From assembly GCA_011050085.1 (NCBI GenBank), contig DRGL01000014.1:1-64000 (forward strand): a DNA stretch of 64,000 bases. Direction: 5' to 3'. Positions 19,532-35,680 of this stretch are shown piece by piece (position 1 is the stretch's first letter; each line of letters opens with the position of its first letter). The translations under genes and the position numbers were made by a program. The notes beneath the pieces are model-generated. The model worked only from the letters and a program-made list of their open reading frames with translations, did not search any database and was not told where the DNA came from. The DNA is from Pricia antarctica (GTDB taxonomy: Bacteria > Bacteroidota > Bacteroidia > Flavobacteriales > Flavobacteriaceae).

Positions 19532-19855
19532 ATGGAAAACAAGCTGGTAAGAATCCCAAAGGCCCTTCAGAAGGATGTATTCTTCTTCGGGCTACGCGCT
19601 AAATATGTGGACCAAGCCTTCAAGGGAACGTTCCTCTCCTTGATGTTGGGGCTGTTCTTAAGTACGTTCATACCTACTTTTCTCAGTCTTTTACTTTCCT
19701 TCTGTGCAGCGGCAGTTTACGTCGGGCTGATGCTCTTCTATTCCAAAGCATACGGTGAAAACGGTTTCATTAAATCCCGAGCGGACAAGAAAGGCCCGGA
19801 TGCCATCAAAGGTCATGTGAACAAAAAACTCCTCGTGCTATGGAAAAAACGGTAA
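19532..19855 (+). CDS. traF: TraF family (DUF4133) conjugation protein
   Basis: A 107-residue protein with the VirB3-like TraF/DUF4133 layout: a short basic N-terminus (R-I-P-K-A-L-Q-K-D-V-F), the motif F-G-L-R-A-K-Y-V, and two adjacent transmembrane helices (about residues 32-72). A conserved-looking polar C-terminus follows. It probably docks the VirB4-type ATPase at the inner membrane. Its 3' end overlaps the traG start by 16 bases, so the pair is co-translated. Confidence 0.85.
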   Translation: MENKLVRIPKALQKDVFFFGLRAKYVDQAFKGTFLSLMLGLFLSTFIPTFLSLLLSFCAAAVYVGLMLFYSKAYGENGFIKSRADKKGPDAIKGHVNKKLLVLWKKR

Positions 19856-22431
19856 ATCTATTGGACACTTTTCCTATTTATGGGTACGAGGCCCCTATTC
19901 TGGTGTCGAAAGAAAAAGGTTGTATCAGTATTCCGTTGGAATTGGAGCTTCCGGAAATCTACACTATGGATGGAAAGGACTATATGAACCTGAACCGAAT
20001 AGTCTCCGGTATTCTGGAAATAATGGGGGAAAATTGCCTGTTGCACAAACAGGATCTTTTCTTCGGGGAAACCTATGCCGTTGATCCTTTGCGGATGAAA
20101 CGCGATTTTTTCGAAACGCAGGATGAACTCTACTTTAAGGAAAGACCTTTTTTAAGACACCGTTCCTTTTTGGCGATACACAAGGTACCCAAGAACTATA
20201 TCGGCCGAACACCTCTAGGTGTCAATTCTTTTTTAAAAAAGGAACGCGGTTTCTATGGGAAAAACCCATTACCCGCAGAATATCTGAACACCGAGGTCAT
20301 GGCCGATTTTGAGGCCCGTGTCGGGGCCGTAAACGACCTGATAAACGATTCCGGTTTGATAGGCTCGAAAATATTGGGGTATGAAGACCTTTTCGAATCG
20401 GCCGGGTACTACGATAATTATCTGGAAGCAAGCTACCAAGCAGGTGCTGGCAGGGATGTTGATTTTTCGGGGAACACCTTGCACATCGGGGACAAACAGG
20501 GGCAGTACTTTACGCTGGAAAACTTGGACCAATTTTCAAAAGAGGATATGGCCTTTCATGAGTATTTCGGAAAATACACCACCGGTGAAAACCTTTTCCC
20601 TATCAGCAATCTGTTCTCTTTGGGCTTTAAGATTCCGCACGAACATATCATCAACCAATACATCTATATCCCGGAGAAGGAAAAGGCCATGGGTAGGCTA
20701 AGGTCAAAGGCCAAACGCTTGAACAAATACGCCACCAATCGCAAAGGGGACAAAAACAGCACCTATCGGGACCAAATCTACGAGTTCCAACAATCGATAC
20801 TGAACGACCACAAAGAATTGGTGTATTACCACCTGAACGTACTGGGGTTGGCCGATTCCAAAAAGACCTTTCGGTCGATGTGCAACACCGTCAAATCCGC
20901 ATTCGGAAAATTGGGCATCCATGCCAAGGAAAATTCCGTGGATCGCAAAAAACTATTTTTCGGGGGCATTCTCGGTAACGGCATCGGTACGAGTATGGAA
21001 CTGTACAGTCCGTTTTCCTCCGAAATGGCTTCCAGTCTATGGTATTTCGAAGGAGGTTATAAAAACAGGCTTCACGGTCCACACGGGCTGCGTATGGTCG
21101 ATAGGGCCACGGGACAACCTTTATTGGTCAGTCTCTATCGCGAACCGGAGGAAAAGGATTGGATATTTAACCGGGGGATGCTCATAGCATCGGGATCGGG
21201 CGGAGGAAAGACCTTCTTTACAAACGCCTATCTGTACTCGGAATATCGTGAAGGTGCGGAAATTTTGATCCTTGAAAACGGAAACTCATATGACAAGCTA
21301 TTGGACCAACTGAACGGAGTCACAATAGCGAACGACGACCAAAACCCATTTACCTTCAATCCCTTTATACTCGATTCTATAGATGTTGTCGTTAAGGATG
21401 GCAAGAAAACCCTGACCGAACATAAACTGACCCAACTTATCGCTTTGGTGTATTTACTATATGGCCGTAAGGATAATGAAGCAGGGGATACCCATGATAA
21501 CACAGTAGTCCGTACGATTATCGAGTTCTTGGTTCAGGGATATTATCAACATCAGTTTTCAAAGGGTAGTTCCGACGATTCTTTTAATACGTTCTACGAC
21601 TACACACATCAAAATTTGAAAGCCCTAATGCAAACGAAGGGCATCCGAGATGAAATATTCGATCCCAATCTGTTCTTATTGTTGCTCAGCAAATACGCTC
21701 ATGACGGGCCGAGGGCGTACCTCTTGAATAGCAGGGATAAAAGAATAGCTCAACTGAGCCAGGAAAGACTGGTCTATTTCAAATTGGAAAATTTGGTCAA
21801 TAATGAAGAACTTTTCCCCATCGTGGCATTTTTGATGATCGATGTGTTCGACAAAAAGTTGAAGGACCCGAAGAAACTTTCCCTCAATAAAATATTGGCC
21901 GTGGACGAGGCATGGAACCTGTTCGACAACCCCATTATGGCCAACTATTTCGATGCCAAATCCAGGATGGCAAGAAAGTATGGAGGACAGCCCATATTCA
22001 TATCACAGAAGGTCGACGATTTCGTAAAATCAAAATTTATCGGCAAGACCATCGTGGTGAACAGTCATATCAAAGTGCTGCTCGACCTTGGTGAATTCGC
22101 CAACTCCTTTGATGAAATCCAGAACATATTAGGCCTGAACGCCAAACAAAAGCAACTGAACCTTTCCGTCAACAAGGATTTACCCATAGGCCGAAAACTA
22201 AGGGAAATGGCAATTTGTTGGAAGGAAAGGGTCAAGGTTTTTGGACTGGAAACATCCTTACCGACCAAATGCCTGTTCGAAACGAATCCGAACGAAAAAG
22301 CAAAAATCAATAGGCTGCATGAACAGCACGGTTATGATTGGGAACGAACCGCGATCGCCTATAAACAATTAGTGATGGAACAAACCGATAGGGATTTGAA
22401 AACCCTGAACGGAAATAGTAAGAACACTTAA
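19840..22431 (+). CDS. traG: VirB4-type conjugation ATPase TraG
   Basis: An 863-residue ATPase that powers assembly and transfer through the channel; called TraG in Bacteroidota elements although homologous to VirB4. Walker A G-S-G-G-G-K-T lies at residues 452-458. Walker B I-L-A-V-D-E-A-W-N-L-F is at 685-695, and the motif I-F-I-S-Q-K-V-D-D-F follows. The N-terminal half (residues 1-430) is the VirB4 N-domain. Length is normal for the family and no disruption is seen. It overlaps traF and is followed by traI after 12 bases. Confidence 0.93.
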   Translation: MEKTVNLLDTFPIYGYEAPILVSKEKGCISIPLELELPEIYTMDGKDYMNLNRIVSGILEIMGENCLLHKQDLFFGETYAVDPLRMKRDFFETQDELYFKERPFLRHRSFLAIHKVPKNYIGRTPLGVNSFLKKERGFYGKNPLPAEYLNTEVMADFEARVGAVNDLINDSGLIGSKILGYEDLFESAGYYDNYLEASYQAGAGRDVDFSGNTLHIGDKQGQYFTLENLDQFSKEDMAFHEYFGKYTTGENLFPISNLFSLGFKIPHEHIINQYIYIPEKEKAMGRLRSKAKRLNKYATNRKGDKNSTYRDQIYEFQQSILNDHKELVYYHLNVLGLADSKKTFRSMCNTVKSAFGKLGIHAKENSVDRKKLFFGGILGNGIGTSMELYSPFSSEMASSLWYFEGGYKNRLHGPHGLRMVDRATGQPLLVSLYREPEEKDWIFNRGMLIASGSGGGKTFFTNAYLYSEYREGAEILILENGNSYDKLLDQLNGVTIANDDQNPFTFNPFILDSIDVVVKDGKKTLTEHKLTQLIALVYLLYGRKDNEAGDTHDNTVVRTIIEFLVQGYYQHQFSKGSSDDSFNTFYDYTHQNLKALMQTKGIRDEIFDPNLFLLLLSKYAHDGPRAYLLNSRDKRIAQLSQERLVYFKLENLVNNEELFPIVAFLMIDVFDKKLKDPKKLSLNKILAVDEAWNLFDNPIMANYFDAKSRMARKYGGQPIFISQKVDDFVKSKFIGKTIVVNSHIKVLLDLGEFANSFDEIQNILGLNAKQKQLNLSVNKDLPIGRKLREMAICWKERVKVFGLETSLPTKCLFETNPNEKAKINRLHEQHGYDWERTAIAYKQLVMEQTDRDLKTLNGNSKNT

Positions 22432-22443
22432 AACCAAAAAAAA

Positions 22444-23073
22444 ATGAAAAATCGAATACTAAAAATGACCATGGCCATATGTTTTATAGGGATACTTCCT
22501 TGTTTGGCAACCGCGCAGATTCCGGTGACCGATGTAGCGGCGAACGCACAATTGGTACTGCTCAACTCAAATGTGGCGACGCTCAATTCGCAACTGGCCA
22601 CTTTGAACGCGACCATGGGCAAGCTATTGGCACAGATGGAACGCAACGTTACCGCCAACTCCAGTTCCTCCAAAATCTTAAGTCAAGACCTGAGCGCGAA
22701 AAGAACGCCAGCCAGCTATGTCATGGGAAGTCCTGAAATGAACGAACTCTACGAACTAAAGGATAAGATCTTAGCGGCATATAAGGGTACGCAAAAGAAC
22801 CTACGAACCTTTACCAACTTGGAAAAAGTGGAAAAGAAGAGGGCTGCCGAGACATTGGCGGATGCCGTCCTACAGGTATCCTCACTTGTTTCCCAAGGTT
22901 CACAAATTGCATCCACCGGTGAAATTATCGAATCGGCGGACAGGCTATCGGCGCTCAGATCAATCTTGGAAAAGATGAACGGGTTATTGGACGATGTCAT
23001 CAAAGTCAACACATCCCTTCTACAAAAAAACGAACACCGTAAAGCCGTCCATTCACTTATAAAAACAAATTAA
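22444..23073 (+). CDS. traI: TraI-like (DUF4141, VirB5/TrbJ-type) secreted protein
   Basis: A 209-residue protein with a clear signal peptide (hydrophobic core then A-T-A-Q at 22-25). The mature chain is nearly all helical with Asn/Leu/Ala heptads (residues 40-75) and coiled-coil segments to the end. This fits the TraI/DUF4141 family of Bacteroidota, which is comparable to VirB5/TrbJ minor pilus or adhesin subunits. It lies between traG and the multi-pass traJ, and its stop overlaps the traJ ATG. Confidence 0.78.
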   Translation: MKNRILKMTMAICFIGILPCLATAQIPVTDVAANAQLVLLNSNVATLNSQLATLNATMGKLLAQMERNVTANSSSSKILSQDLSAKRTPASYVMGSPEMNELYELKDKILAAYKGTQKNLRTFTNLEKVEKKRAAETLADAVLQVSSLVSQGSQIASTGEIIESADRLSALRSILEKMNGLLDDVIKVNTSLLQKNEHRKAVHSLIKTN

Positions 23074-23987
23074 TGTACGCCTTACAATCAAGTTCTGGCT
23101 TTCGGGTAACGGTCAATTCCATATTCGACCAGTACATCGGCGATGCTTTTGCCAGTTTGGGGCCTACGTTGAGCATCGGATTCGGAATGGCGAAAATCGG
23201 TTTGGGCATTTTTGCCCTTACACACTTTGCAGGTAATGATCGAGCGGATGTTATTAAGGCGTTGAAATGGTTTCCCTTAATGTTCATTTTGTTCAACTAT
23301 TCGGAATTCGCACACGCCATTTTTGAATTTTACAATAATCTAGGTTCATCGTTTGTCAGTACCCAAAAAAGTTGGGATACCATCGGCCAAAAAATAGCTT
23401 TGGCGCAGATCGATGTAGCGGCGAACAACCTTGTGGAATGGAACCTGTTGAGTATGGACATCGATGGCCTACAGTCGTTCGCCCTGACCGGACTGGCCGG
23501 TTCCATAACCGCGTTCGCACATATAATCTCTACCTTGATATTCATCGGCATCAAGGCATTGGCCACCATTTATCTTTTCATTCTCATCATTTTCGGGCCT
23601 ATCAATATTGGACTTTCGTTCATTCCCGCTATTTCGGGACTCTGGAAAGCATGGCTGCAAAAGTTCATGAGTATCTGTCTTTGGCTGCCCATGCTCTACG
23701 TGGTGGATATGTTCATGGTCAACCTTGTGGATAAGTTGGTCGATCATTTGCTTCGATACAGTTCCTATGATCTGGGACTGATCTTAAGTTCGTCCATGTT
23801 GATACTGATGACCTCGTTTTTTTATATCAAGGCACCTACTTTGGCAAATTTTGTGGTTCAAGGCCTTAATATTTCAGGAGGTGGCATTGTCGCCAAACCA
23901 AAACATTATAGTAAAAAAGCGATTCAAACGGCCATGGACGTTAAAAGTGGAGGAGCTACCAAAGCTGTCCGAACATTAATCCAATAA
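23073..23987 (+). CDS. traJ: TraJ-like (VirB6/TrbL-type) polytopic membrane protein
   Basis: A 304-residue inner membrane protein with about six to seven hydrophobic segments (near residues 25-50, 62-85, 130-150, 150-180, 185-215, 235-255). The I-I-F-G-P-I-N-I-G-L-S-F-I-P segment is typical of TrbL/VirB6-like channel proteins. A short basic C-terminal tail is cytoplasmic. It overlaps the traI stop by one base and precedes traK by seven bases, matching the order traI-traJ-traK of Bacteroidota elements. Confidence 0.85.
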   Translation: MYALQSSSGFRVTVNSIFDQYIGDAFASLGPTLSIGFGMAKIGLGIFALTHFAGNDRADVIKALKWFPLMFILFNYSEFAHAIFEFYNNLGSSFVSTQKSWDTIGQKIALAQIDVAANNLVEWNLLSMDIDGLQSFALTGLAGSITAFAHIISTLIFIGIKALATIYLFILIIFGPINIGLSFIPAISGLWKAWLQKFMSICLWLPMLYVVDMFMVNLVDKLVDHLLRYSSYDLGLILSSSMLILMTSFFYIKAPTLANFVVQGLNISGGGIVAKPKHYSKKAIQTAMDVKSGGATKAVRTLIQ

Positions 23988-23994
23988 TCAAATT

Positions 23995-24621
23995 ATGGAA
24001 GGAAAGTACGGGATTATCAATGACATTGCCCAGAGTAGAAGGCACAACAATAGATTGGTATATGGTTGTTTGGTAGTGGTCATTATGGTTTTTGGCATGG
24101 CTACCTATTATGTAATGAAGGCGGATCAGCGCGCCAAGAACAATGCATATCTGCTTCATGGAGGGCAAAGATTGCCCATGGCCCCCATTAGGGATGTCCA
24201 AGAAAATCTGGAAATTCTCTGCGAGGGCCATCTTTACAATTTTCATGAGCTGTTTTTCTCATTGGAGCCCAATTTGAAGCTAATTAAAAGAAACATTGAA
24301 GGAAAGGCATTACACATGGTCGACTGGTCAGGCAACCGCTTATACGCCCGTTTGGTCGAAAAAAAGTACTTCCATGATGTGGCAATGCGCGACTATCGCT
24401 ACTTTGTGGAACTTGATTCGATCCAAATCGACTATGGATCCTACCCGTTTCCGTTCACATTTTACGGCAAACAGGCCATAGAAAAAGGCAAATCAACAAC
24501 GTATAGAAACCTGATTACAAAGGGACAATTAAAAAAGGCGGGGGTTACCCCGAACAATTTGAACGGTATAAAGATTATCGACTTTCAGGTCGTAGACAAT
24601 TCCGACCTGGAGCGCATGTAG
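23995..24621 (+). CDS. traK: TraK-like (VirB8-type) conjugation protein
   Basis: A 208-residue protein, the normal size for TraK. A cytoplasmic N-terminus of about 20 residues is followed by one transmembrane helix (V-V-V-I-M-V-F-G-M-A-T-Y-Y, about residues 23-39) and a periplasmic alpha/beta domain of the VirB8/NTF2-like type ending at R-M. It bridges the inner membrane and the core complex. It sits between traJ and the VirB10-like traM. Confidence 0.85.
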   Translation: MEGKYGIINDIAQSRRHNNRLVYGCLVVVIMVFGMATYYVMKADQRAKNNAYLLHGGQRLPMAPIRDVQENLEILCEGHLYNFHELFFSLEPNLKLIKRNIEGKALHMVDWSGNRLYARLVEKKYFHDVAMRDYRYFVELDSIQIDYGSYPFPFTFYGKQAIEKGKSTTYRNLITKGQLKKAGVTPNNLNGIKIIDFQVVDNSDLERM

Positions 24622-24622
24622 T

Positions 24623-25630
24623 TTGAAATTAAAGGAACAAATACAAGTTGTGAAGAGATGGGTGGTCAGAAACCAAAAGGTTGCTATGGCTTTACCTCTC
24701 ATTCTGATAATGACCAGCTTTTTTGTCATCGAAAATCTAAAGGATTTTCAGATGGGCGGTAACAAGGCGGCAAACCTGAACGGGTTTAATACCGAATTGC
24801 CGGGCGAGACACCGACTTTGGATTCCGATACCGCAGGCCGGCAATGGAAGGTCAAGGATTCCTTGGAAAAGGAAGCTGCAACTAACCTAAAAGATTTGGA
24901 AAATTCCGAAAACGACTCGCTCCAACGGATTTTAAAACAACTGGAAGGTTTGTCCATGAAACCGAAAACTAAGGAAACCACTAGTGCAGAAATTCCGGAA
25001 ATCAAAAAATCGATAGATAGAAAGCGGCCCGAAATGACCGAAGATGAGAAAAAACAACAGTTCGTGGAGAACCGGTTGGCCTACCGCGAGAAGCTATTGG
25101 AGGGAAAAGAGAAAATGATAGGCGATTCCCAAACCAACCAAGGTTATTCGCCCGCTGAGCCGATTGTCGATATCGAGAAGTCAATATCGATTAGAGCTAC
25201 CGTATATGGCGACCAATTTATATTGCCCAATGAGAATGTCCGATTGCTGCTCATGGAAGATATGGTTCTAGAGAAGAAAAGGTTCAAGAAGAATACGTTT
25301 ATATACGCCATGGCCTCGATTAAGGGGAACAGGGTTTTTCTGGACATCGACAATATCGAACATCATCCAGTGAATCTATCTGTCAAAGATTTTAACGATG
25401 GTCGTGAAGGCATCTATAGCACAAGGGCTGGCGAACTATGGCGGGAATATAAAGCCAATGCGAGCAACGATCTACTGACCGGTGTGAGTGAAGAGTTGAC
25501 CAACGGTTCTCCCGATCTGGTGACCGATATAGTAAGAGGATTGGGATCCTTCCTTAGAAAGAAAAAATTACGGGAGAAAGAAAAGATTCTTTTGATGGAC
25601 GATTACGAACTTTTATTGGTAACGCAATGA
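24623..25630 (+). CDS. traM: TraM-like (VirB10-type) conjugation protein
   Basis: A 335-residue protein starting at TTG one base after the traK stop; an in-frame GTG at codon 10 is an alternative. One transmembrane helix (residues 21-36) is followed by a long charged, Pro/Glu-rich linker with coiled-coil character (residues 60-190). A C-terminal beta-rich domain (S-I-R-A-T-V-Y-G-D-Q, G-N-R-V-F-L-D-I-D) is typical of VirB10/TraM, with F-S at the G-V-S-E-E-L-T end region. It spans the periplasm to contact the outer membrane ring. The stop overlaps the traN start. Confidence 0.84.
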   Translation: MKLKEQIQVVKRWVVRNQKVAMALPLILIMTSFFVIENLKDFQMGGNKAANLNGFNTELPGETPTLDSDTAGRQWKVKDSLEKEAATNLKDLENSENDSLQRILKQLEGLSMKPKTKETTSAEIPEIKKSIDRKRPEMTEDEKKQQFVENRLAYREKLLEGKEKMIGDSQTNQGYSPAEPIVDIEKSISIRATVYGDQFILPNENVRLLLMEDMVLEKKRFKKNTFIYAMASIKGNRVFLDIDNIEHHPVNLSVKDFNDGREGIYSTRAGELWREYKANASNDLLTGVSEELTNGSPDLVTDIVRGLGSFLRKKKLREKEKILLMDDYELLLVTQ

Positions 25631-26610
25631 GAATAAAAACCTTCATATCATTGTTTGTGTTATTCAGTGCGCTTTTTGGAAATGCGCAAACGGACACCAT
25701 TCCGGTTTCCAGGGATTATAAGACAATACTCGTCCTGCCCGAAATTTTCGATTTCTCAATCAACGGGAAAGAACTCAATTTCATCGAATCCTTCCCTGTC
25801 AAAAATGCGTCCGACAATGCAAAGCGTATCGTCTTGCTAAGTTACAATGACGTGGCACCCGATACCGAAGATCATACCAATTACACGGTGTATACTAGGG
25901 ACGGTCTTACTTATGATTTTATCTTAAGACTGATTGAAGTTCCTGTTAAGAAAAGATGGCCGATTACCAGATCTATGGCCGAAAACCCAGAAGCATTCTC
26001 TGCGCTAGAAGAAAGTTCCGATGTCCCAACTTCGGTAGCTACGCCAAAACCTCCAATGGAGCGTTCCGATATCGCTACAAGGACAAAAGAAGAAGAATTA
26101 GGGGTCTCGCCAAATGAAGAAACGAACGGGGAGCCTTTGCCGCTCACTAGGGAACTCTATGTGCTCGACCGCATGGAATACGTTCGTCGGCGATGTTACT
26201 ATAATCAGTTCAACAAAGGCAAGGTCATTCGCTATTTCGCCAAATACGATGACGTGTTCCTATGGCTTGAAAATGTCTTTTATGAATACAACGAAATATA
26301 CCTGCAGTTTCGTTTGAAGAACAAAGCGCACATGCCCTACGATGTGAATTTCCTCAAATTCCATATCGCTTCCAATTATAGGAACAGTCCGAACAACATC
26401 GATAAAAAACACGAGCCCTTGTTCCGATATAAAGTTCCTAAAAGGGTCGAAGGGAATTCCGAAAACTACTTTATGGTGGTCTTCGATAAGTTCACATTGG
26501 ATCGAAAGAAAGTACTTATGGTCAATGTGGACGAGGATAAGGGCAATAGGAACCTATCCCTGGATATCGACCATAGCGTTATCAATAACCCGTTAGCCTT
26601 TAAATTATGA
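25627..26610 (+). CDS. traN: TraN family (DUF4138, VirB9-type) conjugation protein
   Basis: A 327-residue secreted protein with a signal peptide ending F-G-N-A-Q (residue 21). The mature N-terminal domain begins with the typical K-T-I-L-V-L-P-E-I and V-L-L-S-Y-N-D beta strands. A low-complexity linker follows (residues 120-170), then a C-terminal beta domain with W-L-E-N-V-F-Y-E-Y-N-E-I-Y-L-Q-F-R-L-K-N, which is diagnostic for DUF4138/TraN. It should form the outer membrane core with TraM. It overlaps traM and traO by four bases each. Confidence 0.9.
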   Translation: MRIKTFISLFVLFSALFGNAQTDTIPVSRDYKTILVLPEIFDFSINGKELNFIESFPVKNASDNAKRIVLLSYNDVAPDTEDHTNYTVYTRDGLTYDFILRLIEVPVKKRWPITRSMAENPEAFSALEESSDVPTSVATPKPPMERSDIATRTKEEELGVSPNEETNGEPLPLTRELYVLDRMEYVRRRCYYNQFNKGKVIRYFAKYDDVFLWLENVFYEYNEIYLQFRLKNKAHMPYDVNFLKFHIASNYRNSPNNIDKKHEPLFRYKVPKRVEGNSENYFMVVFDKFTLDRKKVLMVNVDEDKGNRNLSLDIDHSVINNPLAFKL

Positions 26611-27158
26611 GAAATGTTCGTTTTTGTCTAGCGATGGCATTATTGTTATCGGCTTCATTCTGCTTTGGCCAACTGAGAGGTAATCTGGCCTCATCGGTCG
26701 GTTTGAGCGGTGGGTATGTCGAGGATGGTTACGGTATCATGGGCACCTTCAATTTTCATCCCGACCGGTACCGGTATTTTCAGATAAGCATATTGGCCGC
26801 CATTGCCGAGGATAAAGGAAGTCAAGATATACCCTACAACATTTTTACTATTCAACCGGGAATCTATTACCGGGTATTCGTAGCACCGCGAAAGAGAAAT
26901 TTCAGCTTGTTTCTAGGCGGGGGCGGACTCTTCGGATACGAGGTCATCAACAATGGCAGTAATGAACTTCCAAGCGGAGCTTTGATAAACGCCAAAAGTC
27001 AATTCGTCTATGGCCTCTATGTCGGGGCGGAAGCGGAAGTAGGTATCAGCAATGATTTTTCCCTGCTCATAAAAGCGAACGAATACTACCATATCAATTC
27101 CGATGTTGGGAATTTTTATCCGTATGCCGGAGTCGGCCTACGTTATTTTTTGTTCTAA
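26607..27158 (+). CDS. traO: TraO family outer membrane conjugation protein
   Basis: A 183-residue protein with a signal peptide (L-L-L-S-A-S-F-C-F-G-Q) and a mature beta-barrel pattern of alternating aromatic/glycine strands ending in G-V-G-L-R-Y-F-L-F, whose final Phe is an outer membrane insertion signal. Its place after traN and its G-I-Y-Y-R-V-F-V strand fit the TraO family of Bacteroidota elements. The next gene starts ten bases after its stop. Confidence 0.85.
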   Translation: MRNVRFCLAMALLLSASFCFGQLRGNLASSVGLSGGYVEDGYGIMGTFNFHPDRYRYFQISILAAIAEDKGSQDIPYNIFTIQPGIYYRVFVAPRKRNFSLFLGGGGLFGYEVINNGSNELPSGALINAKSQFVYGLYVGAEAEVGISNDFSLLIKANEYYHINSDVGNFYPYAGVGLRYFLF

Positions 27159-31565: not shown

Positions 31566-33623
31566 TTAAATGAGTTCGTTGTCCTCTAAAGTCTTTTTGA
31601 GCTTAGCATGATTCTCCCAAAACCTGTCGTTTATCTTTTGGATAGTTCCCTCATAGGCAGGATGACTTTTCATGAGTTTGATTAGCGGGTCTTTTTCCAA
31701 GAACAACAAAATCCAATATTGGTAATTATCCTGCAATGCGAAAAGTTTGAGCTGCTCCATACCCTTGTCCACTTTTCCCTCATAGGCATACTTTACGGCC
31801 ATGCTAGCGCCCTTGTAAATGGATTTGTCACTTGCTAAATATTCACTATACCACTTAAGAAATTCATTTGCTTCTTCTTCAAACCCCATTTTCTGATAGA
31901 CCAATCCAATCTTTATATCCTCATGGGGATATATATCCCAATTGAACTTTTTTCTAGCTTCTACGAATTTCTGGTAATAGGTAAAAGCACCTTGATAGTC
32001 TTCCTCGATATAATATAGTTTCCCTATATCCTGTAGAATATCCAAGCGGGTGCTATCCTTTTCGAACTCTTTTTTTAAGGTTGTTTTGAGCCGTTCCAAA
32101 TTTTCATCCACAACATACTGAATGAACGCTTTTAAATGTGGGGCATATAAGTTATTAGGGTCGTAATCTAGCGACTTGTTGACATATTTCATGGCCTCTT
32201 CGGTGAAACCACTTTGGGCAAGGGCATTGCTTAAATCCAAATAAATGAAACTTTGGCCCAGTGAGTCATTGGTTGCAACATCCAATTGTGCGCCTTTTAG
32301 AGCATTGGTTAGGTACTTTGCGGTATTAGGTATATAGATAGAATATAATCTAGAAAGCAGTTGAATAACATCGGCCGAATTAGGATTGTATTCCAGTGCC
32401 TTTTCCAAATGAGGTAGAGCCAATCGATATTCTTCGGTATGCATATAATATAATGCTTTGGATATAAGGCTTACATCATTCTTTGAATCATAGAGCAGTG
32501 CCTTGTCCGCATAATTGTTGATAAGGTCGGTATACCGTTTCTGTTTCTGGAAGATATCGAGATAATAATAAGATATGGCGAGATTGGCATAGGCGAGCGC
32601 GAATTGTTCGTCCTGCTGTACGGCCTTTTCAAATAACGGGATGGCCTTTTCCAAGCCTTGCGTAGTCCGCGAATAAAAAGGGTTCAATGCTTGGAGGAAA
32701 TAATCATAGGCCACCAGATTTTCAGTAGGCTTTTTTTCTATTTGCTCCAATTCGGCAGGGGTCACTACAGCTGCAATGGCATCTGCAATTTTCTTTGCAA
32801 CATCGTTTTGCAACCCAAAAATATCTTCTACTTCCCGACTGTACTGTTCCACCCAAATAGGGGTATCAGTCGAAGCGTTAATTAATTGTACGTTGAGCAA
32901 AACTTGATTGCCTACGCGTTGGCCACTACCTTCTACCAAATAGTTAACATGCAGTTCTTCGGCAATCTCTGGAATGCCCTTGTTCGTTTTTCTATATTTC
33001 TCTACCGAGGTTCTACTGATTACCCGTAAGTCTTCAATTTTCTGAAGGTTGTTCAATGCGGATTCCATCAACCCGTTCACGAAATAAAGATTGGTGGAAT
33101 CGGCACTTTCATTTTTGAAGGGCAACACGGCGATGGATTTTTCAACTTCCAGCTTCTGTACGGCAACCGTTTTATTGAAAATCAAAAATGCAACAATCAG
33201 CAATACTATGGATGTGCCCGCGATAATAGGCCATCGGTATATCTTCAAATAGTTCCGCTTAACCTTTTCGGTTTCCACTTCTATAGCACCTTTGCCAACC
33301 TCTCCGGGCGGATATCCATATTGTTCCCGAAAACATTTAATGAAGTAGGAAGTGCTTCCAAAACCCACTTGATACGAAATTTCGGAAACCGTCGAAGAAT
33401 CTTCCTTGAGCAGTTCCATAGCTTCTTTAAGACGGACTTGACGAATAAATTGACTTGCGGAAAGTTGTGTTTGTTTCTTGATTTTCCGAAGCAAGTTGGA
33501 CCGGCTCATATTCATGGCATCTGCCAATTCAGAAACCCCAAATTGGTCGTTACCCAAATTATTCATAATCAGGGCTTCCGCTTGTTCAATAAAGGTCGAT
33601 GTGTTGGCCGGTGTGTTTGACAT
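31566..33623 (-). CDS. AraC-type regulator with TolB-like and TPR sensor domains
   Basis: A 685-residue one-component regulator. Residues 25-108 form an AraC/XylS double helix-turn-helix (F-G-V-S-E-L-A-D-A-M-N-M-S-R-S-N-L and V-S-E-I-S-Y-Q-V-G-F-G-S). A single transmembrane helix at 131-150 follows, then a TolB-N/FlgO-like domain (K-S-I-A-V-L-P-F-K-N at 162-171) and about six TPR units to residue 650. The DNA-binding part is cytoplasmic and the TolB/TPR part should be periplasmic. It is divergent from the tandem peptide genes at 33860, with a 236-base region between, so it may regulate them. Its domain order is the reverse of the regulator at 43103. Confidence 0.87.
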   Translation of the reverse strand: MSNTPANTSTFIEQAEALIMNNLGNDQFGVSELADAMNMSRSNLLRKIKKQTQLSASQFIRQVRLKEAMELLKEDSSTVSEISYQVGFGSTSYFIKCFREQYGYPPGEVGKGAIEVETEKVKRNYLKIYRWPIIAGTSIVLLIVAFLIFNKTVAVQKLEVEKSIAVLPFKNESADSTNLYFVNGLMESALNNLQKIEDLRVISRTSVEKYRKTNKGIPEIAEELHVNYLVEGSGQRVGNQVLLNVQLINASTDTPIWVEQYSREVEDIFGLQNDVAKKIADAIAAVVTPAELEQIEKKPTENLVAYDYFLQALNPFYSRTTQGLEKAIPLFEKAVQQDEQFALAYANLAISYYYLDIFQKQKRYTDLINNYADKALLYDSKNDVSLISKALYYMHTEEYRLALPHLEKALEYNPNSADVIQLLSRLYSIYIPNTAKYLTNALKGAQLDVATNDSLGQSFIYLDLSNALAQSGFTEEAMKYVNKSLDYDPNNLYAPHLKAFIQYVVDENLERLKTTLKKEFEKDSTRLDILQDIGKLYYIEEDYQGAFTYYQKFVEARKKFNWDIYPHEDIKIGLVYQKMGFEEEANEFLKWYSEYLASDKSIYKGASMAVKYAYEGKVDKGMEQLKLFALQDNYQYWILLFLEKDPLIKLMKSHPAYEGTIQKINDRFWENHAKLKKTLEDNELI

Positions 33624-33859
33624 ATTGTTTATTACTAGCTCTAAATTAGGGAAAATTTAAAGAATTACGCGTTATCTCGAAGGCCATCTATTTATCGGAA
33701 AAGTCATCTTTTGCGTCATAATTTGCATCCCTGCGCCATAGTTTCTATGGCCTCCCGAAACCTTACATAGTTCTCCGCATAGCTCATATGGGTTGCTTCA
33801 AGTTCGATAGCATCTTTGTACCAACAAAAATCATAACAAAACAATTTAAAACTAAAATC

Positions 33860-33973
33860 ATGAAAGCATCGATTACAAGAACAGCAACGGAATCTAAAAT
33901 AGGTCAGTACTTCTCAACCTTTAGCAGTAGCAAAAGGGCACAGTGGGCCCAATACAGAAACTTCAGCAGATAA
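33860..33973 (+). CDS. Tandem micropeptide 1 (37 residues)
   Basis: A 37-residue basic peptide rich in Ser, Thr, Arg and aromatic residues, first of three tandem paralogues. Motifs shared by all three are T-E-S at residues 10-12, S-K-R at 24-26, Trp28 (29 in the third) and an Arg four residues later. The upstream frame stays open but only this ATG aligns with the second copy, so the start is set by comparison. It has no signal peptide, no Cys and no membrane segment. The peptide is nearly identical in sequence to copy 2 (33 of 37 residues by eye), showing selection at the protein level or recent duplication. I do not recognise the family. It could be a secreted signal, a modified-peptide precursor or a small regulator. 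Confidence 0.75.
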   Translation: MKASITRTATESKIGQYFSTFSSSKRAQWAQYRNFSR

Positions 33974-34017
33974 TTTGAAATAAAAGAACAGTAAACAATC
34001 TATAAAAACAAAATATC

Positions 34018-34131
34018 ATGAAGGCATCAATTACAAGAACAGCAACGGAATCAAGAACAGGACAGTACTTCTCATTTTTCAGCAGCAGCAAGAGAACCCA
34101 ATGGGCGCAGTACAGAAACTTTAGCCGCTAA
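34018..34131 (+). CDS. Tandem micropeptide 2 (37 residues)
   Basis: The second of the tandem peptides, 37 residues, 44 bases after the first. It differs from copy 1 at only four positions (residues 13, 14, 20 and 27), while the spacers between genes are unrelated in sequence. It ends in the same Q-Y-R-N-F-S-R. The conservation confined to the reading frame is the best evidence that these short frames are genes. It has a start context AATATC-ATG like neighbouring genes. Confidence 0.75.
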   Translation: MKASITRTATESRTGQYFSFFSSSKRTQWAQYRNFSR

Positions 34132-34169
34132 TCACGGTCAGTAAGAAAACATCAAAAAACAACACAGTC

Positions 34170-34292
34170 ATGAGAACAATCATCAATCACTCGCCAACGG
34201 AATCTAGAAGACTCACTTTCCTTACCCGTTTCAAGGACAGCAAGAGAATCCGCTGGTCAGAATTCAGACATTACCTTCATTTAGAAGCCTAG
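34170..34292 (+). CDS. Tandem micropeptide 3 (40 residues, diverged)
   Basis: The third, more diverged paralogue, 40 residues, 38 bases after the second. It keeps T-E-S (10-12), a Phe near 17-21, S-K-R (24-26) and W29, and replaces most other positions. It ends with a longer tail L-H-L-E-A. Divergence with the key motif kept suggests that T-E-S and S-K-R-x-x-W are functional. A hairpin at 34310-34341 follows the stop, so the three peptides may form one transcript separate from the downstream barrel gene. Confidence 0.68.
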   Translation: MRTIINHSPTESRRLTFLTRFKDSKRIRWSEFRHYLHLEA

Positions 34293-34309: not shown

Positions 34310-34341
34310 AAGGGGTAGACCCTCATCAAAGTCTATCCCTT
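34310..34341 (+). terminator. Hairpin after the micropeptide genes (terminator or attenuator)
   Basis: An 11-bp stem (AAGGGGTAGAC with GTCTATCCCTT, one G-T wobble) with a 10-base loop lies 18 bases after the third peptide stop. There is no T-run, so it may be a partial terminator, attenuator or RNA-stabilising end rather than a classical terminator. Confidence 0.55.
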
Positions 34342-34379: not shown

Positions 34380-35036
34380 ATGAAATCAAAGATTCACGAA
34401 TACCTATTAAAAATAAATAACAAAGGCATGAGTAAAACAATCAAAAAACAGATAATGTTAAAAATGACGTGTATTGCTTTTACTTTAATATCTACAATGG
34501 CATTTGCCCAAAACAATTCTAATGTCCAAAACAGTTTCAACCGAGAAGGTTTTATGTTTGAATTTGGTCTAGGTGGTGGTATAATTAGTATAGAAGATAG
34601 TGCTGGAACTCAAAGTTTAGATAATACCCAAAGCGGTGGCACTTTTCCTGAATTAAAGTTAGGCTATATGATAAATAACCGATTAGCCATTACCGTTTCT
34701 GCACCTGGAATGATTTACACGGTTAATGATAACGACAGACACTTTGGAGGCATTATACCTGCTGTTCAGTATTGGGTAAAAGACCGGTGGTGGATACATG
34801 GTGGTGCTGGTCTGGCCATCGATTCGCCTGCGTTATATGATATTAAAGACAATGTAAATGACGATTGGAATACAGGGATAGCAGCTATGGTGAGTACAGG
34901 TTATGAAGTGTACAGAAAAAACAAGTTTGCCCTAAACGTTCAATCTAAATTGCTCTTGGGTGGTGTGAAGCTGAATAATAATATTGACAGAGAGGTGGTG
35001 CAATTTAGTTTAGGAGTTGGCTTTAGCTGGTTTTAA
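34380..35036 (+). CDS. Outer membrane beta-barrel protein
   Basis: A 218-residue protein if read from 34380; an ATG at 34428 gives a more usual signal peptide (M-L-K-M-T-C-I-A-F-T-L-I-S-T-M-A-F-A-Q). The mature chain has glycine/aromatic alternating strands (F-E-F-G-L-G-G-G-I-I-S-I, W-W-I-H-G-G-A-G-L-A-I) and ends V-G-F-S-W-F with a C-terminal Phe, typical of an outer membrane barrel. The N-terminal extension resembles a small peptide (K-I-H-E-Y-L-L-K-I) and may be an artefact of the longer frame. It lies downstream of the micropeptide genes. Confidence 0.75.
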   Translation: MKSKIHEYLLKINNKGMSKTIKKQIMLKMTCIAFTLISTMAFAQNNSNVQNSFNREGFMFEFGLGGGIISIEDSAGTQSLDNTQSGGTFPELKLGYMINNRLAITVSAPGMIYTVNDNDRHFGGIIPAVQYWVKDRWWIHGGAGLAIDSPALYDIKDNVNDDWNTGIAAMVSTGYEVYRKNKFALNVQSKLLLGGVKLNNNIDREVVQFSLGVGFSWF

Positions 35037-35080: not shown

Positions 35081-35680
35081 ATGAAAACATTTAGAATTAA
35101 CACATTAAGAACCTTGGTGAACATGTCATTAGTGCTCCTTTTACTCACAGCGGCATGCGGTCAGTCGAGTAATAAGACAAAAGAACAAGCAAAAAGTGGC
35201 ACAGAAGTCAAGTCGGTAGTTGATGCTCCAGAAATCGACATTCAAGCAGCGATACTATCGGACAATCTTATAGCCGTTAAACAACACATTGAAGCGGGTA
35301 CTGACCTTAACATGAAAGACGCTATGAGCGGTTCCACGCCATTGATCACTGCGGCAAGTTTTGGAAAAATTAAGATTGCACAAGCCCTTATCGATGCCGG
35401 TGCAGATTTAACGGCTAAAAATAATGATGGCGCCACGGCCTTACATACGGCCGCATTCTTTTGTAGGGTCGAAGTCGTACAATCGCTTATCGATGCCAAA
35501 GCCGATAAAACTGCAAAAAACAACTTTGGTTTGACGCCAAGGGAAAGTGTTATGGGGCCTTTTGTAGAAATAAAGCCCATTTATGAAATGCTTCAGCAAC
35601 AATTAGGGCCGATAGGTTTACAAATTGACCTGGCAGAAATCGAAAAAACCCGTCCGGTCATCGCTATGATGTTGCAGTAA
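35081..35680 (+). CDS. Ankyrin-repeat lipoprotein
   Basis: A 199-residue lipoprotein. The signal sequence ends L-L-L-T-A-A-C (lipid Cys at residue 26), followed by a Lys/Ser linker. Residues 55-160 hold three ankyrin repeats (S-T-P-L-I-T-A-A-S-F-G-K, A-T-A-L-H-T-A-A-F-F-C-R, L-I-D-A-G-A-D pattern). Ankyrin domains bind proteins; here the domain would be anchored in the periplasm or at the surface. It lies 44 bases after the barrel gene and 21 before the acyltransferase, so they may be one operon. Confidence 0.88.
   Translation: MKTFRINTLRTLVNMSLVLLLLTAACGQSSNKTKEQAKSGTEVKSVVDAPEIDIQAAILSDNLIAVKQHIEAGTDLNMKDAMSGSTPLITAASFGKIKIAQALIDAGADLTAKNNDGATALHTAAFFCRVEVVQSLIDAKADKTAKNNFGLTPRESVMGPFVEIKPIYEMLQQQLGPIGLQIDLAEIEKTRPVIAMMLQ

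Follow-up and report, generated by a model that had tools for sequence, protein, structure and literature searches.

SRA/bS22 is a small basic ribosome protein of the stationary phase: short, strongly basic, and leaderless. The Ldr/Rdl type I toxin loci of E. coli carry a gene of about 35 aa in tandem copies. In Staphylococcus, the phenol-soluble modulin operons (psm-alpha and psm-beta) are likewise made of tandem, leaderless genes, for peptides of 20-44 aa. AgrA, a LytTR regulator, directly activates psm genes, and its binding site upstream of the agr promoters consists of two direct repeats (PMC4227749). As for promoters, a CGT box in the -10 region marks an ECF-type class in Flavobacterium psychrophilum (motif SM6; PMC9723704).

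Here, we describe an array of three small genes in a window of 64,000 nucleotides (the whole stretch of DNA analyzed) from Pricia antarctica, together with its relatives in other Flavobacteriaceae. By analogy, the peptides may be likened to SRA/bS22 in being short, strongly basic, and leaderless; unlike it, they match no family library, come in tandem multicopy form, and stand under several regulatory inputs. The tandem copies recall Ldr/Rdl, but here no hydrophobic segment is present, one promoter serves several copies, and distinct peptide types follow one another in a conserved order. With the psm operons the arrays share tandem, leaderless, small genes, and LytTR-like repeats before some arrays may be a further parallel, all of this a likeness of description; in contrast to the modulins, the present peptides combine a basic charge with weak amphipathicity, most arrays have a different, dedicated promoter of their own, and no exporter recurs beside them. 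The window copies are not strongly amphipathic (maximum hydrophobic moment about 0.34, maximum windowed hydrophobicity 0.44), and the amphipathic helix of high hydrophobic moment that typifies modulins was not found in them. The putative dedicated promoter resembles those of the SM6 class in its CGT box, yet its upstream part is long and invariant (TGTTAAA..., dyad AGTAC-N13-GTACT), and it belongs to this peptide gene family only.

Results

A sequence-only reading of the window had proposed three consecutive small genes, and the ORFs (37, 37, and 40 aa) are real and lie where it placed them (table 1). Copy 1 could be read from further 5', its frame staying open to an ATG at 33788, but all relatives back the start at 33860. 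The motif T-E-S-x(11)-S-K-R-x-x-W is found in the window peptides and, again as first read, four residues in all distinguish copy 1 from copy 2 (K13R, I14T, T20F, and A27T). Their frames carry 15 synonymous differences over 21.8 sites and 6 nonsynonymous ones over 89.2 sites (pS 0.69, pN 0.07); by our own arithmetic, a synonymous count this high has a binomial probability of about 4e-7. With most synonymous sites changed and only four residues altered, the encoded peptide is therefore what selection keeps, as the reading had argued. Its companion claim, that the spacers differ completely, holds but for an A-rich leader before each ATG: they are 44 and 38 nt long and otherwise unrelated. The window gave no match in Rfam. 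Elsewhere in its genome (5.5 Mb), contig C30 bears a further array of three copies (24692-25151); a match on C81 (E 0.6) was taken as chance.

Table 1. Features of the Array and Its Surroundings in the Window
Feature	Position	Strand	Details
AraC-type HTH, transmembrane, TPR regulator	31566..33623	-	Pfam HTH_18 3.4e-21, TPR matches
Putative operator/promoter block, regulator to first peptide, TTTGCGTCATAA...GCGCCATAG...CATAGTTCTCCGCATAGCTCATA...ATCTTTGTACC	33710..33822	+	Alignment of 12 arrays
A-type peptide copy 1	33860..33973	+	37 aa
A-type peptide copy 2	34018..34131	+	37 aa
B-type peptide, terminal copy	34170..34292	+	40 aa
Conserved 3' hairpin, GGGGTAGAC-cctcatcaaa-GTCTATCCC	34312..34339	+	Pattern search; two genome matches, each after an array
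OMP-barrel-like protein	34380..35036	+	Pfam OMP_b-brl E 2e-4, below cut-off
Ankyrin-repeat probable lipoprotein	35081..35680	+	Ank_2 7e-16

Conservation of the frame in relatives, on which the sequence-only reading had staked its proposal, is what a profile search found: the family is present in 66 of 397 Flavobacteriaceae genomes and 44 of 237 genera (E <= 0.01, best 2e-21), a cut-off at which the weakest matches may be chance. The 73 named loci fall in Maribacter, Pricia, Arenibacter, Pseudozobellia, Croceitalea, Croceivirga, Muriicola, Allomuricauda, and related genera. Marine flavobacteria are major polysaccharide degraders, and genes this short are often missed by standard annotation. Outside Flavobacteriaceae, profile searches of phylum and order samples yielded chance-level matches alone, and a core-only profile gave nothing above that level. 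No relatives of the peptides were found in the plasmids, phages, and viral contigs searched, and a phage or plasmid origin is therefore not supported (in one row of the alignment behind the named-genome and viral-contig scans, SRR had been mistyped as SKR at a single residue; other searches were unaffected). The reading had not recognized the family, and the libraries agree: scanned singly at E 0.01, none of 129 members matched a Pfam or NCBIfam family, and PHROGs returned just two single weak matches (0.0018 and 0.0027). A profile search of the PDB gave chance matches only, and literature searches on the family and on comparable tandem arrays turned up nothing relevant. These peptides look like an unrecognized class of bacterial small protein. 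Their frames are under purifying selection, with pS 0.61 versus pN 0.14 for A-type copies compared between loci and 0.34 versus 0.05 for copies inside arrays; the lower synonymous divergence within arrays is as repeated duplication or gene conversion predicts.

Across loci, 275 peptide matches resolve into 90 arrays, six duplicate loci having been taken out. These follow a common order: an optional C-type gene, then one to four A-type copies, then usually one B-type, which is last in all 64 arrays holding one and never internal. The A-type consensus is MKASITKTATESKTGQYFSSFSxSKRAQWAQYRNFNR, whereas the B-type is more divergent (consensus MKTFINQSPTESRRFTFFTNFKDSKRIRWAESRQYLH). The third peptide, C-type (MRTLHPHLxRPKIYFRIGFGWNTDRWYDQKIKN), looks unrelated to either and has no match in Pfam; it occurs in 17 arrays, ahead of or among the A copies, and all 11 whole-genome matches to it lie in or beside A arrays. 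Its core, RPKIYFxIGFGWNTDR, can be read in L067, L041, L057, L117, and other loci. One genus (g26) has a 24-aa short form, MRTTIFNNSKRVRWSAHRNYAIKS, in near-identical tandem copies; what it keeps is mainly SKRxRW(S/A)xxRNY, which marks this part as the core. Short-form arrays stand behind the dedicated element described below; L139 (G314) has four copies and, in addition, a divergent fifth one, and L140 (G028) has three. A-type peptides have a mean net charge of +6.4 and rarely contain Cys (14 of 182 copies), and their sequence properties revealed no signal sequence, hydrophobic segment, or membrane segment. AlphaFold2 models the A-type as two short helices at low confidence (pLDDT 67, pTM 0.23) and the C-type, also at low confidence, as a small beta-hairpin plus helix; thus, no fold supports a partner.

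Upstream of 67 of the 90 arrays lies an almost invariant block of about 60 bp, TGTTAAATATTaTATAAAATAGTACCTTTTTATaCATAGTACTGTAACAAAAt-N11-TCGTCTA. Nearly all 67 elements contain GTAAC-N16-CGTCT, which fits the -35/-10 form of ECF-sigma promoters with a spacing of about 16 bp, and the element is probably a promoter of this type; the dyad AGTAC-N13-GTACT directly upstream suggests a further regulator. A 29-bp core of the block has 36 matches in 33 array-bearing genomes, one or two per genome, against 0 for the reversed control. Peptides stand just downstream in 31 of 31 loci read, the C30 match of the window genome included, and six further core matches lie beside known array coordinates. An adenylate/guanylate cyclase-domain membrane protein is recurrently divergent from arrays with this element (L040, L062, L069, L072, L109, L116, and L122). 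A different signal, the direct repeat ACAATTGAG-N13-ACAATTGGG, occurs at 22 sites in the 90 arrays, mostly in long spacers and, at all sites but one, about 99-122 nt upstream of a copy. These putative regulatory repeats resemble LytTR sites; none is found at the window array. Among 116 neighbors, in which 129 Pfam families were seen and the commonest only 6 times, no exporter or modifying enzyme recurs, the leading families being cyclase-domain membrane proteins and AraC-type regulators.

At the other end, many arrays carry a hairpin, GGGATAGAC-cttcatcaaa-GTCTATCCC, some 20-30 nt past the last stop and usually followed by T-rich sequence. An ATC-type loop is common to 43 arrays (conserved loop TTCATCAA), and the stem varies on both sides with compensatory changes, in a script-based comparison without phylogenetic control. 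The pattern of the window hairpin has its two matches in the window genome after arrays and none in array-less genomes, while for a second variant 24 genomes gave four matches, each of which follows an array, judging by the coordinates. With its short T run, the window hairpin escaped the terminator scans and was picked up by the pattern search.

Twelve arrays, the window's included, are divergent from an AraC-TPR regulator, from which they are separated by a nearly constant gap of about 236 bp with a conserved block of about 110 bp. At its end, this block is similar to TAnnTTTG, the sigma-A -7 box of flavobacteria (PMC9723704). Where the sequence-only reading named an AraC-TolB-TPR neighbor, the AraC-type HTH, the TPR part, and the divergent orientation stand, but no TolB family match was obtained; the segment after the transmembrane helix matches a CadC model in NCBIfam. 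Downstream, its ankyrin protein is borne out by a clear family match, whereas its barrel protein has only a weak OMP-barrel match that is subthreshold in Pfam (22.1 bits, cut-off 28.7). The barrel protein is absent from some arrays in the AraC-TPR context. Most arrays have no AraC-TPR neighbor, and the link is local. In many relatives, AraC-TPR orthologs stand directly divergent from the ankyrin gene and no peptides are present; most orthologous pairs are in fact peptide-free, the window genome itself keeps an empty paralogous site on C30, and the block in table 1 aligns with empty AraC/ankyrin loci as well. The divergent gap between regulator and ankyrin gene is similar with or without peptides. 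AraC-TPR and ankyrin are, by this comparison, an older pair, with the ankyrin gene as the ancestral divergent partner. In the window alignment, the array follows the promoter and leader of the regulator-ankyrin pair, with the junction right at the start codon, and between hairpin and ankyrin gene of species G002, operator plus leader are partly duplicated (L202, 4120-4254). From the empty orthologous and paralogous sites, this junction, and the G002 duplicate, the array appears to have joined a pre-existing regulated promoter at the window locus, one of which the AraC-TPR protein is the probable regulator.

Discussion

The account toward which we lean, tentatively, is that of a self-contained array cassette with several inputs, encoding leaderless basic small proteins that are probably intracellular, dosage-amplified effectors. 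With a little more reserve, we regard as possible the broader proposal that such cassettes form a plug-in class: up to three micro-protein types in fixed order, a variable dosage of A copies, an own promoter and 3' RNA element, and the capacity to be placed behind regulated promoters too, giving one intracellular effector several inputs. A dedicated ECF-sigma-type promoter would drive most arrays, and LytTR-type repeats and the AraC-TPR site would act as alternative inputs, so that the same peptide product might be made upon several envelope or nutrient signals. Less certainly, the products would be intracellular effectors amplified by dosage and not secreted signals or toxins, an intracellular location being the most likely one. 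They may act via the basic-aromatic core SKRxxW(A/S)xxRN(Y/F), which would bind a partner, anionic or protein, that is conserved throughout the clade. Small regulatory proteins, one option of the sequence-only reading, thus named, are a possible description of them. A strongly conserved, multicopy, separately regulated micro-protein family in marine flavobacteria points to an unrecognized function in regulation or stress. Through the dedicated promoter one can look for the sigma factor in control, and the action of the peptides is open to genetic tests in arrays that differ in their inputs.

Tandem leaderless genes of 24-44 aa would also suit peptides exported through an unlinked exporter, whether as signals or as surfactant-like or antagonistic agents in the style of phenol-soluble modulins, and the direct repeats of LytTR type ahead of some copies recall the control of psm by AgrA (PMC4227749). 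We find this unlikely: hydrophobicity and hydrophobic moment are low at a net charge of +6, no exporter recurs beside the arrays, LytTR-like sites occur in a minority of them, and A-type peptides hardly vary from genus to genus, whereas pheromones and bacteriocins of the diversifying kind would. That conservation could, for its part, be strong enough for a shared extracellular role. If instead the RNA were the active molecule, with promoter and hairpin defining a regulatory RNA whose small frames are translated as a secondary matter, one could understand why the promoter is almost invariant and why the loop is conserved over a covarying stem, which is unusual for a plain terminator. The strong synonymous excess, with synonymous divergence in the frames near saturation, speaks against it, as do the A-rich, variable spacers and the window's lack of an Rfam match, and we rate it as improbable.

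Precursors of RiPPs, cut and modified to a small product, correspond to the modified-peptide option of the sequence-only reading. No RiPP enzyme, protease, or exporter recurs among the 116 flanking proteins, Cys is rare, and the A-type is conserved in both halves; on the strength of short repeated precursor-like genes, a conserved C-terminal core, and a g26 form holding mainly that core, we grant it a slim chance. Slimmer yet is that of tandem toxic peptides from type I toxin-antitoxin modules: genes of about 37 aa in tandem bring the Ldr peptides of E. coli to mind, but the products have no membrane-spanning hydrophobic segment, and several copies share one promoter where each would have its own. 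The least probable proposal is the one first made for this locus, in which the neighboring AraC regulator would sense a peptide signal with its TPR domain. The nearly constant gap and conserved operator seemed to favor it, yet this spacing belongs to the regulator-ankyrin pair itself, which is mostly peptide-free, even at the paralogous site of the same genome. Furthermore, the regulator is missing beside most arrays, and the predicted topology puts its TPR part probably across the membrane from a peptide without signal sequence. The preferred reading, of intracellular effectors under several inputs, treats this regulator as one input among others.

The surroundings of the window array deserve a final word. 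Transfer genes of a conjugative transposon (TraG P-loop, TrbL, TraM, DUF4138, and TraO) occupy 19840-27158 and stop a few kb short of the AraC-TPR gene, which places the array locus close to a conjugative element that has integrated. On the other side of the array, the barrel protein shares an N-terminal stretch, MKSKIHEYLLKxNNKxxSKT (34380-34450), with the ankyrin protein of G002 (L202, near 4254), which points to duplication within this locus.
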